Assembly (NCBI GenBank): GCA_016841965.1
Contig: JAEANN010000016.1
Coordinates: 103,305-143,271, forward strand
DNA: 39,967 nucleotides
Source: Candidatus Roseilinea mizusawaensis
GTDB taxonomy: Bacteria; Chloroflexota; Anaerolineae; J036; Brachytrichaceae
Reading direction: 5' to 3'
Each line of letters begins with the position of its first letter. Within the stretch, counting starts at the first letter, position 1. Below the pieces are notes generated by a model, which saw only the letters and a list, made by a program, of their open reading frames with translations, made no database searches and was not told where the DNA came from. Positions 3,276-38,388 of the stretch are shown one piece after another. The translations under genes were made by a program, and so were the position numbers.

Positions 3276-3296
3276 GCGGGTCAATTGGCTTGAAGC
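3276..3296 (-). repeat. Terminal degenerate (half) CRISPR repeat
   Basis: Only the 21 bases GCGGGTCAATTGGCTTGAAG plus C of the repeat are kept; the other 15 match at about 3 positions. It is followed by an over-long 51-bp interval (3297-3347) that contains a small hairpin TCGGCT-GA-AGCCGA. Decay of the terminal repeat is typical of the leader-distal end of arrays. Confidence 0.8.
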
Positions 3297-5431
3297 CGGG
3301 GTGGTCGCGGCGTTTAGGCCGCTGTCTCGGCTGAAGCCGAAGACTACTTTCAGTACCCTCGTGCGGGTCAATTGGCTTGAAGCACCTCACTCCTCATCAC
3401 TCATCACTCATCACTACTGACTTTCAGTACCCTCGTGCGGGTCAATTGGCTTGAAGCGATGCGCACCCAGGCGTCACCACCCATCGTGACCACGTTTCAG
3501 TACCCTCGTGCGGGTCAATTGGCTTGAAGCGCAGCCGCGCGCAGGAGGCAAGAGCTGGGGGTGCTCTGTTTCAGTACCCTCGTGCGGGTCAATTGGCTTG
3601 AAGCTACTCCCCCCCTCGCACCTGAATCTATCTCCCCCCAGTTTCAGTACCCTCGTGCGGGTCAATTGGCTTGAAGCTGCAGATTTGTTTTATGGGGGCA
3701 AGCCGGTGAAAGGCGTTTCAGTACCCTCGTGCGGGTCAATTGGCTTGAAGCGGCGCGCCGGCGCGGGAAGGGACCTGCGGCCACGCGTTTCAGTACCCTC
3801 GTGCGGGTCAATTGGCTTGAAGCCCTGCCGGCCCACCTGCCAGCCAGCATCTGGGCGCGTTTCAGTACCCTCGTGCGGGTCAATTGGCTTGAAGCCGGCG
3901 TTGCTGGTGCTGGTCGATGTGTCGTCAAGTAGTTTCAGTACCCTCGTGCGGGTCAATTGGCTTGAAGCACAATGACGAACGAAGAGAGGGCCGGGCTATA
4001 CATCTGTTTCAGTACCCTCGTGCGGGTCAATTGGCTTGAAGCCCGCTTGCTGAGGTGTGTCCGCAGTAATGAGCACCAACCTTTCAGTACCCTCGTGCGG
4101 GTCAATTGGCTTGAAGCGCGCCCCCGAGTGGGTCTGGGCGCTGGCCACCCTGCTTTCAGTACCCTCGTGCGGGTCAATTGGCTTGAAGCCCCCCGCTGCA
4201 ACGCAGTGTTTTATGGGGGCAAGCCTTTCAGTACCCTCGTGCGGGTCAATTGGCTTGAAGCCCCTCATCACTCACCCCTCGCTACTCACCGCTTGAGCTT
4301 TCAGTACCCTCGTGCGGGTCAATTGGCTTGAAGCCTGGTCTCCGACCACTGGCGTGCGCAAGTATGCGCTTTCAGTACCCTCGTGCGGGTCAATTGGCTT
4401 GAAGCCAACGCGCGGCGCAGACGTGCTTGCGCAAGACTACAGACTTTCAGTACCCTCGTGCGGGTCAATTGGCTTGAAGCGTTCTTACCTGGAGATCGCC
4501 GAACGAGTTGGGCCAGCTTTCAGTACCCTCGTGCGGGTCAATTGGCTTGAAGCAAGGGAGGTATACGACCTCAATTGCCAACGTTGACTCTCTTTCAGTA
4601 CCCTCGTGCGGGTCAATTGGCTTGAAGCGCAGTGGCAATCGAGCTTGCGATTCGCGGCAAGAGGTTTCAGTACCCTCGTGCGGGTCAATTGGCTTGAAGC
4701 TTCGAACTCGTGCTACGCGCGCCAATACCCACCACGTTTCAGTACCCTCGTGCGGGTCAATTGGCTTGAAGCTCAGAGCCGGTCATGGCCATGCGCGGGT
4801 TGATCTGTTTCAGTACCCTCGTGCGGGTCAATTGGCTTGAAGCCCGCAGGTGTTAGGGCCGGCGCGCTGATGAGATACAGCTTTCAGTACCCTCGTGCGG
4901 GTCAATTGGCTTGAAGCATGCAATACAGCCGTGGAGTCCTTGCCGCCGCTAAACGCTTTCAGTACCCTCGTGCGGGTCAATTGGCTTGAAGCAAGCGCAA
5001 AGCGCAGAAATAGCAAGTCACAGGCGCGCTTTCAGTACCCTCGTGCGGGTCAATTGGCTTGAAGCAGCCTGCGTTCGAGCGCTTCAATCTGCGCCGATAC
5101 TCTTTCAGTACCCTCGTGCGGGTCAATTGGCTTGAAGCGTGCGATGGCTTTCTCGCTCGCATCTCGCGATGCGTCTTTCAGTACCCTCGTGCGGGTCAAT
5201 TGGCTTGAAGCGGTGTCTATGGGGCCAGGCGCGTACACATGGCAGGCGGTCTTTCAGTACCCTCGTGCGGGTCAATTGGCTTGAAGCTCATCGCCAGCTT
5301 CTCCAGAGCCGGCAGATCGAGCTTTCAGTACCCTCGTGCGGGTCAATTGGCTTGAAGCGCAGGCGCTGGAGCGAGCAGGCGTCATACTGCGTGACTTTCA
5401 GTACCCTCGTGCGGGTCAATTGGCTTGAAGC
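3276..5431 (-). CRISPR. CRISPR array, 29 full repeats plus one half repeat, no adjacent cas genes
   Basis: Twenty-nine copies of a 36-bp repeat, apparently identical throughout, begin at 3348 and end at 5431. In plus-strand text each begins TTTCAGTACC and ends GGCTTGAAGC. Spacing is 35-40 bp. A 21-bp half repeat (3276-3296) lies at the left end, separated from the first full repeat by 51 bp. The base just before each TTTCAG is always C or G, so the unit is better described as 37 bp with a dimorphic end. Read on the minus strand the repeat contains ACCC-GCACGA-GGGT, a hairpin, followed by ACTGAAA(G/C), which resembles the 8-nt crRNA 5' tag of type I/III systems. The half repeat at the left and the long AT-richer non-coding region at the right favour a leader on the right and minus-strand transcription. 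No cas gene occurs in the window, so the type cannot be assigned. Confidence 0.97.
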
Positions 5432-5544
5432 CGCGTGCTGCTTCAACCATCTCGTAGGGGTCAAATGACCTTTTTCTGCTTACAAGCCCTAAATTCGGCC
5501 CTCTGGTGCAGCCGGTTTTTGCGCTGCCCGCCTTCACGAAGCGT

Positions 5545-5550
5545 ATTATA
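5545..5550 (-). promoter_or_regulatory. Putative CRISPR leader -10 element
   Basis: Plus-strand ATTATA reads as a perfect TATAAT on the minus strand, pointing at the array about 115 bp away. No good -35 is visible at 16-18 bp spacing (ATTCGT). It supports transcription of the array from the right. Confidence 0.45.
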
Positions 5551-5556
5551 CCACAG

Positions 5557-5604
5557 TTTGGCGAGAAACGAATTCTGCTGAAAAACCCCGGACATTCTCG
5601 CCAA
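5557..5604. repeat. Inverted-repeat module, copy 1
   Basis: TTGGCGAGAA (5558-5567) and TTCTCGCCAA (5595-5604) form a 10-bp perfect inverted repeat around a 27-nt loop containing GAAAAACCCCGGAC. A second copy with the same arms and a similar loop lies 183 bp to the right. Confidence 0.8.
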
Positions 5605-5739: not shown

Positions 5740-5787
5740 TTTGGCGAGAATCGGTCTGGGGCCGAAAATCCCCCGACTTTCTCGCCA
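5740..5787. repeat. Inverted-repeat module, copy 2
   Basis: TGGCGAGAA (5742-5750) and TTCTCGCCA (5779-5787) form a 9-bp inverted repeat around a 28-nt loop containing GAAAATCCCCCGAC. It matches copy 1 at both arms and in the loop core, so this is a duplicated module, not chance pairing. Confidence 0.8.
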
Positions 5788-11972: not shown

Positions 11973-12338
11973 TCAATGCTCCCAATCGTCAATCTGGCAA
12001 TCGTCAATTGCTGGGTTGATCTGTTGCGCGACAATGGTTTCGATGGCTGTCAGCACGGCGGGCAATTCGGCGGGGTCTTGCAGGTCAAACAGCACGGTGA
12101 TGGTGGCGCTGCGCTCGACCAGCATCAGCGCGTCGCGGTCGAGCACGGGAGCGGTGGTTTCGCGGGCCGGTTCGGTCATGTAGGCGATCGTTGCTTTCAG
12201 CCGGCCGCTGTTGTCGATGGCCACTTCCCACACCGTGTCTTGCTCGCGGCGGGCGATCACAGCGTCGCCGCAGGTCACATCGAAGCCGGCGGACTCAAAA
12301 GCAGCCGTGAGGATGTCGGCGTCCAGTGTGAATGACAT
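11973..12338 (-). CDS. Hypothetical protein, 121 aa, coupled to PLD gene
   Basis: I do not recognise this protein. It is acidic and lacks a signal peptide or membrane helix. It has an alternating strand/helix pattern: TVWEVAIDNSGRLKATIAYM looks like a beta hairpin, and PAELPAVLTAIETIVAQQ a helix. The start is the ATG at 12338, which shares its A with the TGA stop of the upstream PLD gene (TGATG), so it is translated with that gene and probably works with it. The last codons (IDDCQIDDWEH) are encoded by a short direct repeat (AATCGTCAAT, three copies at about 11967-12009), so the C-terminus may be recently extended by repeat growth. Confidence 0.65.
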   Translation of the reverse strand: MSFTLDADILTAAFESAGFDVTCGDAVIARREQDTVWEVAIDNSGRLKATIAYMTEPARETTAPVLDRDALMLVERSATITVLFDLQDPAELPAVLTAIETIVAQQINPAIDDCQIDDWEH

Positions 12339-13441
12339 CAGCGATCGACTCCTTTGTTCCAGTCCTTCTCGAACGCTTCGAGCATACGCTGAATGGCCGG
12401 CTGGTCCGAGAGCAGAATTCCCAGCTCGCGGTTGAAGTCGAGTGAGGTGGTGGTGATGTTCTCCGAGCCGGTGTAAGCGAACACACCATCGGCCACAAAC
12501 ATCTTGGCGTGGATGTATGGGCTGCGCACATAGCGCACTTTGACGCCGCCGGCCTGTAGCGCGTCCAGCCCTTTGCTCTCGCCGGTTGTGGAGGGCGAGG
12601 TGATCAAACGCACCGTCACCCCACGCTTGACCGCCTCGGTCATTAATGCAATCTGGCGCGTGTCCTCGGCCACTTCGGCGTACACCTCCAGCGTGCGCGT
12701 GGCGGCGTTGATCACGCTGTTGATCCGCTCGCGCGAATTGACCGGACTCCATACCAGATGCGGGCGCTGCGGCGTGAATGCTTCGCGCTTCCAGTCTGCC
12801 TCGAATGCGGCGGCGACTTCGGCGACATCGGCTGGGTCGCGGGTGATGACCAGCAGTTCGCGGTTGCGGGTGAACGCGGCTTTGGTCATGTTCGCCGTCA
12901 TGATGACGGCCAGATCGTCGATCACGAAACTCTTCTCATGCGTAAAGCGGAAAGTGGGGTTTGTGTACTTGACATCGACGCCGGCCTGTTTGAGCTTGTC
13001 GAACATCTGTTTGGTGGTGCCGGCGCCGCCGAACGGCTTTTCTTCCAGCATGGCGCGCACGTCTGCCCCGTTGCGCATCGCCGACTGCATGGCGTCGATC
13101 ACCTGCTCGTCGGTAAGCAGATAGACCTTCATGTACACGCGCCGGCGGGCCTGGGCGATCATATCCAGCAATTGTTGCTCGCTGTCTTCGGGATAGATGT
13201 GCAACTCGATGCCGGTGGCGCCGGGCAATCCTGCCGTCTCGGTGGGGGTGGCCGGCGGGGTCGGGGCAGGCTGCGGCTGCGGGAAGAGCTGATCGCGCAG
13301 CGCGAGAAAGCCGACCAGGATCAGCCCGGCGACCAGCGCGATCACCTGCGCCTGGCTGACGCCCCTATTTGCACGTTTGCTGGACGCCGGCTTCTTTCTG
13401 GGCTTGGGTGTTGGATCAACTTTGGATGACGAGCGTTTCAT
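12338..13441 (-). CDS. Membrane-anchored phospholipase D-like protein
   Basis: 367 residues with a basic N-terminus, one membrane helix (VIALVAGLILVGFLAL, about residues 32-47), and two PLD half-domains. Each half carries an HKD-type motif: FRFTHEKSFVIDD followed by NMTKAAF, and SPYIHAKMFVADG followed by GSENITTTS. Together they would form one active site with the two His acting on a phosphodiester. Members include phospholipases, cardiolipin synthases and nucleases. The order Hx-Kx4D-x6-N fits the general PLDc_2 group, so the substrate is open. The anchor and Pro/Thr-rich linker suggest that it acts outside the cytoplasm. It overlaps the unknown 121-aa gene by one base. Confidence 0.85.
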   Translation of the reverse strand: MKRSSSKVDPTPKPRKKPASSKRANRGVSQAQVIALVAGLILVGFLALRDQLFPQPQPAPTPPATPTETAGLPGATGIELHIYPEDSEQQLLDMIAQARRRVYMKVYLLTDEQVIDAMQSAMRNGADVRAMLEEKPFGGAGTTKQMFDKLKQAGVDVKYTNPTFRFTHEKSFVIDDLAVIMTANMTKAAFTRNRELLVITRDPADVAEVAAAFEADWKREAFTPQRPHLVWSPVNSRERINSVINAATRTLEVYAEVAEDTRQIALMTEAVKRGVTVRLITSPSTTGESKGLDALQAGGVKVRYVRSPYIHAKMFVADGVFAYTGSENITTTSLDFNRELGILLSDQPAIQRMLEAFEKDWNKGVDR

Positions 13442-35264: not shown

Positions 35265-35298
35265 AAGGGCGGTCTGCACGACCGCCCTTCGCTTTTTT
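35265..35298 (+). terminator. Rho-independent terminator
   Basis: AAGGGCGGTC and GACCGCCCTT form a 10-bp stem around TGCAC, followed by CGC and six T. It serves the plus strand, i.e. the decayed FN3 gene, and is still intact. Its last T is also part of the NB-ARC gene's stop codon. Confidence 0.85.
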
Positions 35299-38135
35299 CA
35301 AGCCGGCGTAGAAGGCTGGCTGTTGAGCACGCCGGGGCATGACCAGCGCGCCTCGGCGTCCTCAAGCGTTTCCAGCCAGCCGGCGACTTCACCGGCGCGA
35401 TAGTGTTCGAGTGTGCGCAGGTCGCTCAGGCTAAGCTGGGCAAGCCGGCGCGCTTCGGCCCAATCAGCCTGCTCGGCTCGAACGCGCGCCAACCCAAAGC
35501 GATGAAGCGCAGCCAAATCTGGGTAGTGATTCTGCCCGGCAATTTCCAGGCCGCGCGCAAAGATTGCGCCGGCCTCGGCGATCTGGACCTGTGCCAGGCA
35601 GCACTCGCCCAACTCGATCCGTACGCTGGCCTTGTACCAGGTCAGTCCGTTTTGCTCGGCCAGTTGAAGCGCCTGGAGCAGATGGCTGTGCGCTTGTTCC
35701 CACCGTTTCTGCCGCATGTTCAACACACCGAGCGCGTGTTCCACCAGCGTCAGGTTGTGCAAGCTGGCCAGGTCACGGGCAATCGCGTGCGCCTCTTCGT
35801 AATAGGCCTGGGCTTGCGCATAGTCGTGTTTGTCCACGGCGATCACACCCAGCGCGATGAGCGCGTAGGCGATACGATCGCGAAAATCAATCTGGCGCGC
35901 CAGGGCCAGGCCGGCCTGAAGATGCAGGCTGGCCTCATCGTGGCGATTGCGCTGCCGCAGCAAAGCGCCCAGATTAAGCAGCGCGTTGATCTCTGCCACC
36001 GGCTGCCCAAGCGTGTGAGCCAGCCCGGCGCTTTGCAGGAGCGTGGCTTCGACCTCGTCATGGCGGCCGAGCTGGCCCAAGGCGGCTGTGCGTGTGTGTA
36101 GAATCTGTAAGCGCAACGCAGCCTCGTCGGGGGAGGGAGTCAAGTCAAGCGCCTGATCACAGATTTCTACGGTCTGCCGGGCGTCGCCGGCCAGCCAATG
36201 CGCCTGCGCCAGTGTTGCCAGCGCAGTTGGCAGCGCCTGCGGCGCTTCAGAGCGGGCATATTCAACCGTTTGTTGAAGCTGCGCAATCGCGCCGGCCACG
36301 TCATGATGCCAAAGCAACACCCGTCCGCGCTGAATGTCAAACCGGCAGCGCTCGGCCGGCCCGTGTGAGCGGAGCTGCCGTTCGGCCATATCCAGCAGGC
36401 GCTCGGCCAGCGCGCGCACCCCACGTCGGTCCAGGCAATCGAACAATGTCTGACAGAAGTGCGCGGCTGCCTCGGGCCAGTCCAGATCAACAGAGATCTG
36501 AGCAGCGGCCAGGGCGGCCGTCCATTGTGCGGGGGGCAGGGGGCATTGAGCCGGCGAGTACACCACGCGCATGGCGTGTTCAACCAGCGCGCGGCGGGCG
36601 CGCTCGCTGATGTGCGCCTGGGCTGCGTGTGGCTCGGCCAAGCGCCAGTCGCGGATGGCCGCGTGAATGCTATAACAACCGTTGTAATGCTGGATCAAGC
36701 CGCTATCCACCAATCGGTCAAGCGCGGCCAGAGCCGATGAGGTGTCGGGGATGACCGCGCGCAACACACTCAGGGCTGTCTCTTCATCAAAGACGGCTGG
36801 TTTGGCCGGCAATTCACACAGAGCCAGAAGTCCTTGACGGTGCGCCTCGGGCAGAATGGACACGCTCAGCGCAATGCTTTCGCTCAGTGAGGCATTGTCT
36901 GCTGCCAGACGATCTATGCCCAACGGTAGGCGCAAGGCCAGGCGCGCCTTCGCGTCGCGCAGGGCCTTCAGCGCGGCTGCCACGCGACGCGGCTGGCCGG
37001 CGTGAGATTCGTGCCGCAGATAGTGCCCGACCAGGGTGAGCGCCAGCGGTAACCCACCGCATGCTTCGGCCAGCGCGCGCATGTCGTGGTAGTGGTCGGC
37101 CAGCAAGCCGGGCGCAAGACTGTCCAGCAGTGACAGACTGTCTTCCAAGCTCAGATCAGGTATAGCGATACACCCGCGCGCCTCGGCGAAATTGACGGCC
37201 AGTTCGGGCAGTGTGGTGGAGAGCAAGTAAACACATTGCGCGTTGCCCACGAGTAGCGGCTCGACGTGCGCCATGTCCCAGACATCATTGAGCGCCAATG
37301 CCAACCGCCGTGTGCCGAGCGCCTGACGCACGATTTGCGCGCGTTGGTGCGGCGTCTTGAAGTGTTCCAGGTCGTGCAGGCCGAGGCCAAGCGCTTGGCC
37401 CCATTCTGTCAGGATTGCCGATAGGTCTGGTTGTGGGCCAAGGGTGGCCCACAGCACGCCGTCGGGATAGTGCGTCTTGAGAGAGGGTGCGCTCGCCAGA
37501 TGTGCCAGCAAGGCGCTTTTGCCGCTGCCCGGCAGACCGTGAAACGCCAGCCGGCGGCATCCAAACGTCAACAGCGAGTCGGCCAGTTCAAGCAGCGCCT
37601 GGCGCCCAACGAATGGCCCATGCGGCGCCGGGGCGGTATTGAGTGGGCCTGCCGGGCGTGGGGCAGAGGGGGATTGCACGAAGAAGCCGGCCCCGAGTGG
37701 CGCTTCCGCCCCGCGCAGGAGATCGCCCAGCGCGTCGAGCGCTTGTTGTAACGCGCGCCGGCAACTGACTGCCTCAATGCACAACAGGCGCGCCACGTCC
37801 TCAAGCGCGCGACCTTCCAGGTAGTGTTCGGTCAGTGCGATATAGCCGCGCCAGGCGCGGTCAGGGGGCGTGGGCGGCGCGCCGGCCGGCCGCAGGCGTG
37901 CAATCGCTTCCAGCACGATTCCACGCAGAGCAGTGGGGGCGTCTTCTCCGCGTGCCTGCCGGCGTTGAGCAACAACTGGGCTGCGCGCCAGCGGATGCGC
38001 GTTGAGTTGGGCCGGATCGTGCCAGGCGCGCAGCAGGCGGCGCAGCGATTTGCGCCCATAGATGTCCTCTACGGCGTCCTCTACGCTGGAGCGTCGTGGC
38101 AAGGTCTTGCGGTGCGTCGTATGGTGTGTGGCCAT
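35298..38135 (-). CDS. NB-ARC (AP-ATPase) protein with C-terminal TPR repeats
   Basis: 945 residues from the ATG at 38135; an in-frame start at 38321 would add 62 residues that look non-coding. Layout: an N-terminal helical domain (about 30-140; its middle part, LARLLCIEAVSCRRALQQAL, looks HTH-like), then an NB-ARC ATPase with P-loop GLPGSGKS (about 200-207), Walker B-like LALALNDVWD (about 278-287, Asn replacing the first Asp of the usual DD) and the GLPLAL motif (about 361-366). A winged-helix part follows, then roughly ten TPR-like helical hairpins to the C-terminus. Such STAND proteins are signal-sensing switches, often regulators or immune sensors. A truncated copy of its N-terminal domain lies at 34476. 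The ligand is unknown. Confidence 0.85.
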   Translation of the reverse strand: MATHHTTHRKTLPRRSSVEDAVEDIYGRKSLRRLLRAWHDPAQLNAHPLARSPVVAQRRQARGEDAPTALRGIVLEAIARLRPAGAPPTPPDRAWRGYIALTEHYLEGRALEDVARLLCIEAVSCRRALQQALDALGDLLRGAEAPLGAGFFVQSPSAPRPAGPLNTAPAPHGPFVGRQALLELADSLLTFGCRRLAFHGLPGSGKSALLAHLASAPSLKTHYPDGVLWATLGPQPDLSAILTEWGQALGLGLHDLEHFKTPHQRAQIVRQALGTRRLALALNDVWDMAHVEPLLVGNAQCVYLLSTTLPELAVNFAEARGCIAIPDLSLEDSLSLLDSLAPGLLADHYHDMRALAEACGGLPLALTLVGHYLRHESHAGQPRRVAAALKALRDAKARLALRLPLGIDRLAADNASLSESIALSVSILPEAHRQGLLALCELPAKPAVFDEETALSVLRAVIPDTSSALAALDRLVDSGLIQHYNGCYSIHAAIRDWRLAEPHAAQAHISERARRALVEHAMRVVYSPAQCPLPPAQWTAALAAAQISVDLDWPEAAAHFCQTLFDCLDRRGVRALAERLLDMAERQLRSHGPAERCRFDIQRGRVLLWHHDVAGAIAQLQQTVEYARSEAPQALPTALATLAQAHWLAGDARQTVEICDQALDLTPSPDEAALRLQILHTRTAALGQLGRHDEVEATLLQSAGLAHTLGQPVAEINALLNLGALLRQRNRHDEASLHLQAGLALARQIDFRDRIAYALIALGVIAVDKHDYAQAQAYYEEAHAIARDLASLHNLTLVEHALGVLNMRQKRWEQAHSHLLQALQLAEQNGLTWYKASVRIELGECCLAQVQIAEAGAIFARGLEIAGQNHYPDLAALHRFGLARVRAEQADWAEARRLAQLSLSDLRTLEHYRAGEVAGWLETLEDAEARWSCPGVLNSQPSTPA

Positions 38136-38388
38136 TTTGCTGGCGTAATCAGTCCTCCCCGCACGACACTCATTGTAGACCAATATCCTGAGAAGTGGGG
38201 GGCATACGCCGCGCACGAGGGGAAACCATTCGTTGCCACGGCGCGTCGGCGAGGGGGCAAGGCCTGAGTGCAAATTGTGATCAAACTGTGAGCAAAATGC
38301 GCTGGACATTCTGCACGTCATTTGACAGCATATTTTTTATCGCATGAGTTGGCTTGCTCAAACCCAACGTGTTATTCCGGACGTGAAG

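Follow-up and report, generated by a model that had tools for sequence, protein, structure and literature searches.

A G/C dimorphism at the last repeat base changes in blocks along a CRISPR array of Candidatus Roseilinea mizusawaensis

Why does a CRISPR array whose repeats are otherwise identical alternate, in blocks, between two forms of its last repeat base? The question is raised by an array in the window, the whole 39,967-nt stretch of Candidatus Roseilinea mizusawaensis DNA that was analysed. The array comprises 29 full repeats, and a 36-nt core (TTTCAGTACCCTCGTGCGGGTCAATTGGCTTGAAGC on the plus strand; first copy 3348–3383, last copy 5396–5431) is identical in 29/29. On the plus strand, each core is immediately preceded, on its left, by the boundary base. 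The range given in the earlier note starts at 3348, and the first boundary base is at 3347, just outside it. In the crRNA orientation the repeat reads GCTTCAAGCCAATTGACCCGCACGAGGGTACTGAAA followed by a terminal G or C. The boundary base is the 37th and last repeat base (GAAAG or GAAAC), as the note had read it, and it is outside the individual spacers. It also closes the predicted crRNA 5′ tag (ACUGAAAG/C); processing of the window repeats is predicted to leave an 8-nt 5′ tag, ACUGAAAS, and loading into the effector would follow. The 28 internal spacers (34–39 nt) are all unique, and the locus thus has the identical repeats and the unique spacers of constant size expected of a CRISPR array. 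A truncated 21-nt copy at 3276–3296 was left out of the repeat count. The features of the locus are as follows.

3347–5431, minus strand: CRISPR array, 29 repeats of 37 nt (36-nt invariant core plus terminal G/C)
3276–3296, minus strand: truncated trailer-end repeat copy, 21 nt, the 5′ part of the repeat, terminal base lost
5432–5560, minus strand: leader, with conserved counterparts beside the sister arrays of contigs C48 and C32 (same genome) and in the congener G027

The segment 5395–5560 matches the C48 sister array, across its leader and first repeat, at 83% identity, and the motif GGTCATTTGACC, 27 nt ahead of the first repeat, recurs before the arrays on C32 and in G027. A conserved leader therefore adjoins the newest repeat. 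Because the similarity to C48 places the leader at the right end, the crRNA is read from the minus strand, and the blocks run G8 C3 G8 C8 G2 from newest to oldest. Beyond the leader there is an imperfect direct repeat (5577–5603, GCTGAAAAACCCCGGACATTCTCGCCA; 5761–5787, GCCGAAAATCCCCCGACTTTCTCGCCA), and similar TTCTCGCC elements are found upstream of the arrays on C48, C32 and in G027.

From left to right on the plus strand, the boundary bases are C2 G8 C8 G3 C8, exactly the order described in the earlier note. Only 5 runs are seen, whereas 14.7 are expected (SD 2.5; exact one-sided P = 7.2e-5). The blocks, from the leader outwards, are listed below.

4881–5431, minus strand: newest block, 8 repeats ending GAAAG (C on the plus strand)
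4664–4843, minus strand: second-newest block, 3 repeats ending GAAAC (G on the plus strand)
4081–4628, minus strand: third block from the leader, 8 repeats ending GAAAG
3494–4042, minus strand: fourth block from the leader, 8 repeats ending GAAAC
3347–3457, minus strand: oldest block, 2 repeats ending GAAAG

The four switching spacers are 8, 11, 19 and 27. Spacer length is 35.7 versus 36.4 nt by allele, with overlapping spreads.

Protospacer flanks were read from spacers that overlap others in the same genome (n = 8 pairs); one of the eight, between two genomes, probably matches by chance, and the match of the window pair (spacers 17 and 24) is a diverged one. CCN is directly upstream of the protospacers in 5/8 pairs (P = 5e-5) and is a provisional PAM of this Cas1-Cas2-Cas4 clade. 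The overlapping spacers from which the 5′-CCN motif is deduced are window spacers 17 (4190–4225) and 24 (3678–3715) and spacers of arrays L142, L150 and L152. The apparent PAM leaves position −1 free. This flank base is A, C, G or T, and it equals the terminal repeat base in 1/8. No secure target emerged from searches of phages, plasmids and six viral-contig patterns; the best match, to spacer 27, was in L164 at 78% identity.

Two further links between repeat end and spacer were rejected. Adjacent spacers have the first base in common in 25.7% of cases versus 25.3% after shuffling, so over-long duplication by one base is not frequent. An association of the terminal base with the first spacer base (P = 0.035 in the window) was matched by an arbitrary control position (P = 0.041), and no effect was seen in other arrays. 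Spacers 28 (3384–3420) and 16 (4262–4297) resemble the host's own (C)CATCACTCA-type minisatellites (L068, 490–656; L069, 540–670), which suggests that they are self-derived; in L068, a solitary decayed repeat (TTTTCAGTAGCCTTGGGCAGGTCAGCGGGTCAATTGGCTTGA) is directly ahead of such a minisatellite. In array L113 (G096), one protospacer was captured repeatedly, always from the same 5′ end but with 3′ ends varying by 1–2 nt.

Related arrays were retrieved by Cas1-guided and repeat-guided searches, giving 51 Anaerolineae arrays with 1,440 repeats, the window included; two L153 "arrays" are one array found twice. Each of the 50 related arrays (~1,400 repeats) nearly always keeps a single terminal base, either G or C. 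Fixed arrays include G109, G115, G113, C106 and C134 (base and repeat count). A or T at this position is found in the Anaerolineae set only in degenerate trailer-end repeats, and the preceding ACTGAAA is constant in most arrays. Along the Cas1 tree, the array-level base changes 8 times, the same as with shuffled labels. The base is nearly always fixed within arrays and the last base of the provisional PAM does not predict it; therefore, it is inherited from the leader-proximal repeat. Consecutive repeats share the base, as a leader-copied variant should. The mixed arrays are the following.

L103: G31 C1 G4 C2 G1 C1 G1
L141: C18 G2 C1
L143: C10 G1 C1
L145: C7 G1
L147: C2 G1 C1
L156: G2 C12

Screening by pattern for neighbouring repeats that differ in their last base yielded further C>G cases, in G236 and in G308; G236 has two arrays with C in the oldest repeats and G in all newer ones. 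We counted a change as strictly heritable when it was shared by at least two newer repeats against at least two older ones, with degenerate trailer repeats excluded. The terminal base accounts for 7/8 such changes in the 51 arrays (binomial 8e-11 for a named position) and for 3/4 without the window array. Array L184 from G236 adds one, giving 8/9, all of them G<->C. The terminal base is thus a two-state site at which heritable flips are far commoner than at other repeat positions. A second boundary hotspot, considered from first-base changes in L142, was discarded because it was one mutation copied by tandem duplication. The earlier note held that a pure repeat mutation would switch once, which is too strict, since G<->C switching at this position recurs in unrelated arrays. 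The same recurrence keeps recurrent mutation live beside recombination.

Copying of the leader-proximal repeat explains the blocks, and inheritance in blocks is ordinary CRISPR biology. The last repeat base is inherited in this way, and the blocks are descendants of switched repeats. The observations themselves are the core identity, the block order, the conserved leader, the fixation in relatives, the flank independence and the concentration of heritable changes. The flips may come from a spacer-side hotspot restricted to G/C or from recombination of array haplotypes. We favour the former, a change at the spacer-side junction with only G or C surviving, at about even probability. Each acquisition would copy the leader-proximal repeat including position 37, so that consecutive repeats agree. 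The leader-proximal repeat would have switched four times (G>C, C>G, G>C and C>G, from oldest to newest), and each new allele would have been copied into the next 3 to 8 repeats. The changes may occur at the spacer-side integration site, where the last templated base lies at the cut, by a gap-filling or cut-register error. Survival may be limited to G or C if a repeat ending in A or T is a poor integration acceptor or yields a poor crRNA 5′ tag. The integration would be performed by Cas1-Cas2-Cas4 acting in trans from contig C32, on which the I-B and III-B effectors are also encoded.

Several points bear against this reading. Plain mutation would have to reach a very high rate to give four G<->C transversions at one site in 28 steps, and no switch is found in many arrays of more than 80 repeats. 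The spacers at the switches deviate from the array mean by −0.63 ± 0.49 nt, a value compatible both with the shortening by 1 nt that a one-base register slip predicts and with no shortening. The G/C-only outcome must require selection or acceptor preference, both hypothetical. Switches are enriched in the window's own family, and a lineage-specific cause such as recombination fits this too.

Recombination between two haplotypes of the same array, with leader ends GAAAG and GAAAC and blocks swapped between co-occurring strains, is possible but less probable. Only two alleles ever alternate, as it would predict, and arrays of the clade do rearrange: L142 (G022) contains a three-fold tandem duplication of 4 units, and L103 (G023) contains identical non-adjacent spacers (32 = 38, both after C, and 8 = 16). 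Array deletion or recombination that keeps the downstream repeat's 3′ end has been documented (PMC8047081, PMC7056967). Deletion inside one array cannot alone yield alternating blocks, because the newer block is removed. Against recombination, the restriction of the polymorphism to the terminal base would still leave a hotspot to be explained. Moreover, no GAAAC array and no shared spacer was found, all window spacers being unique.

No cas gene was found among the window ORFs scanned. The sole cas1 of the genome is on contig C32, which encodes a type I-B set (Cst1, Cst2, Cas5 and Cas3), a III-B set (Cmr1-6 including Cas10), a CARF protein, Cas1, Cas2 and Cas4, together with a 4-repeat array, GTTTCAAGCCGGTTGACCCGCACGAGGGTACTGAAAG, whose repeat is near-identical to that of the window. 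Thus, cas genes and a matching array are present in the same genome. With a single cas1, the change of acquisition machinery over time that the earlier note had raised finds no support. The C48 sister array begins GTTTCAAGCCAATT...GAAAG and is broken off by the contig end. Both sister arrays end GAAAG; they differ from the window repeat at position 2, and that on C32 also at positions 11–12. All 29 window cores keep C at position 2 and AA at positions 11–12, and therefore carry no trace of exchange with the sisters. The assembly holds no GAAAC-fixed sister array, and no donor array or haplotype with the other allele was found in the genome or in the relatives examined. The note's account of the blocks is right on inheritance from the leader-end repeat with repeated switching; the GAAAC sister array that it named as possible support has so far not been seen.

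Contig C48 (G000; L022, 9937–9973) ends exactly behind the first repeat of the sister array, as expected if the newest spacers vary among strains. The syntenic site in the congener (L070, 5000–5100; G027, contig C39), with the same lamin-tail-domain gene as neighbour, has no array; gain or loss of the array therefore took place within the genus. Elsewhere in the window, a PLD-family protein with weak similarity to DISARM DrmC (12338–13441) and an NB-ARC/TPR protein (35298–38321) are possible defence genes.

It is improbable that the array grew from within. Two founder repeats, mutated G>C in place, would have served as internal acceptors around which the two C blocks grew locally; two mutations would then suffice instead of four, and ectopic acquisition is documented for CRISPR3 of S. 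thermophilus (PMC7999890). However, the leader is intact and conserved, nine internal acquisitions would be required, and single-repeat mutants in other arrays stay single.

That the contig fuses arrays of different strains through their identical repeats is quite unlikely as well. The genome is a draft of 59 contigs in which two other arrays end at contig ends, one of them right after the first repeat, but alternating blocks of this kind also occur in L103, whose genome is in 5 contigs, and other assemblies show single switches. A terminal base supplied by each prespacer, from its PAM or spacer, has very little probability despite the type I-E precedent of a PAM-derived last repeat base that can change with inverse insertion (PMC4762764), since the runs test, the constancy of the base across more than 100 spacers in many arrays and the agreement of flank base −1 in only 1/8 reject it as a general rule; the earlier note, from the order of the bases, had likewise argued against a PAM-derived base.

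Two known systems come closest. In type I-E (E. coli; inverse insertion in S. avermitilis), variation likewise falls on the exact last repeat base, which is altered by PAM retention or inverse insertion (PMC4762764). There, however, the base arrives with each prespacer, whereas in the window array it is inherited and bears no relation to the protospacer flank. In Legionella pneumophila type I-F, a terminal-base polymorphism (GAAA versus GAAG) is passed to all later repeats (PMC7056967); that such terminal variants are inherited once an array has collapsed is established there (PMC7056967; review PMC8047081). The Legionella change is A/G, with one switch through array collapse and refilling, whereas the window array changes between G and C, back and forth, and keeps its older blocks.

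What is modestly new is that the G<->C switch is reversed repeatedly and affects the terminal base alone. We found no description of it in the literature compared, outside which stood the 2025 survey of CRISPR repeat mutations by Mitrofanov et al. (cited in PMC12638026); to judge by its title, that survey concerns subtype-specific patterns, and it may already include such switching.

GAAA plus a final G or C is the end of many type I and III repeats. The arrays described here suggest why both ends exist: one adaptation system flips the last base while the rest of the repeat stays fixed. Spacer-side integration may sometimes rewrite the last repeat base pair, to G/C only, and the change is then inherited; each block boundary would accordingly record an aberrant integration, a two-state growth mark, a reading that we put forward as doubtful. 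The flips are stored in order in the array and offer a cheap marker of acquisition history. They also provide a handle on the accuracy of spacer-side integration, which is less studied than leader-side integration.
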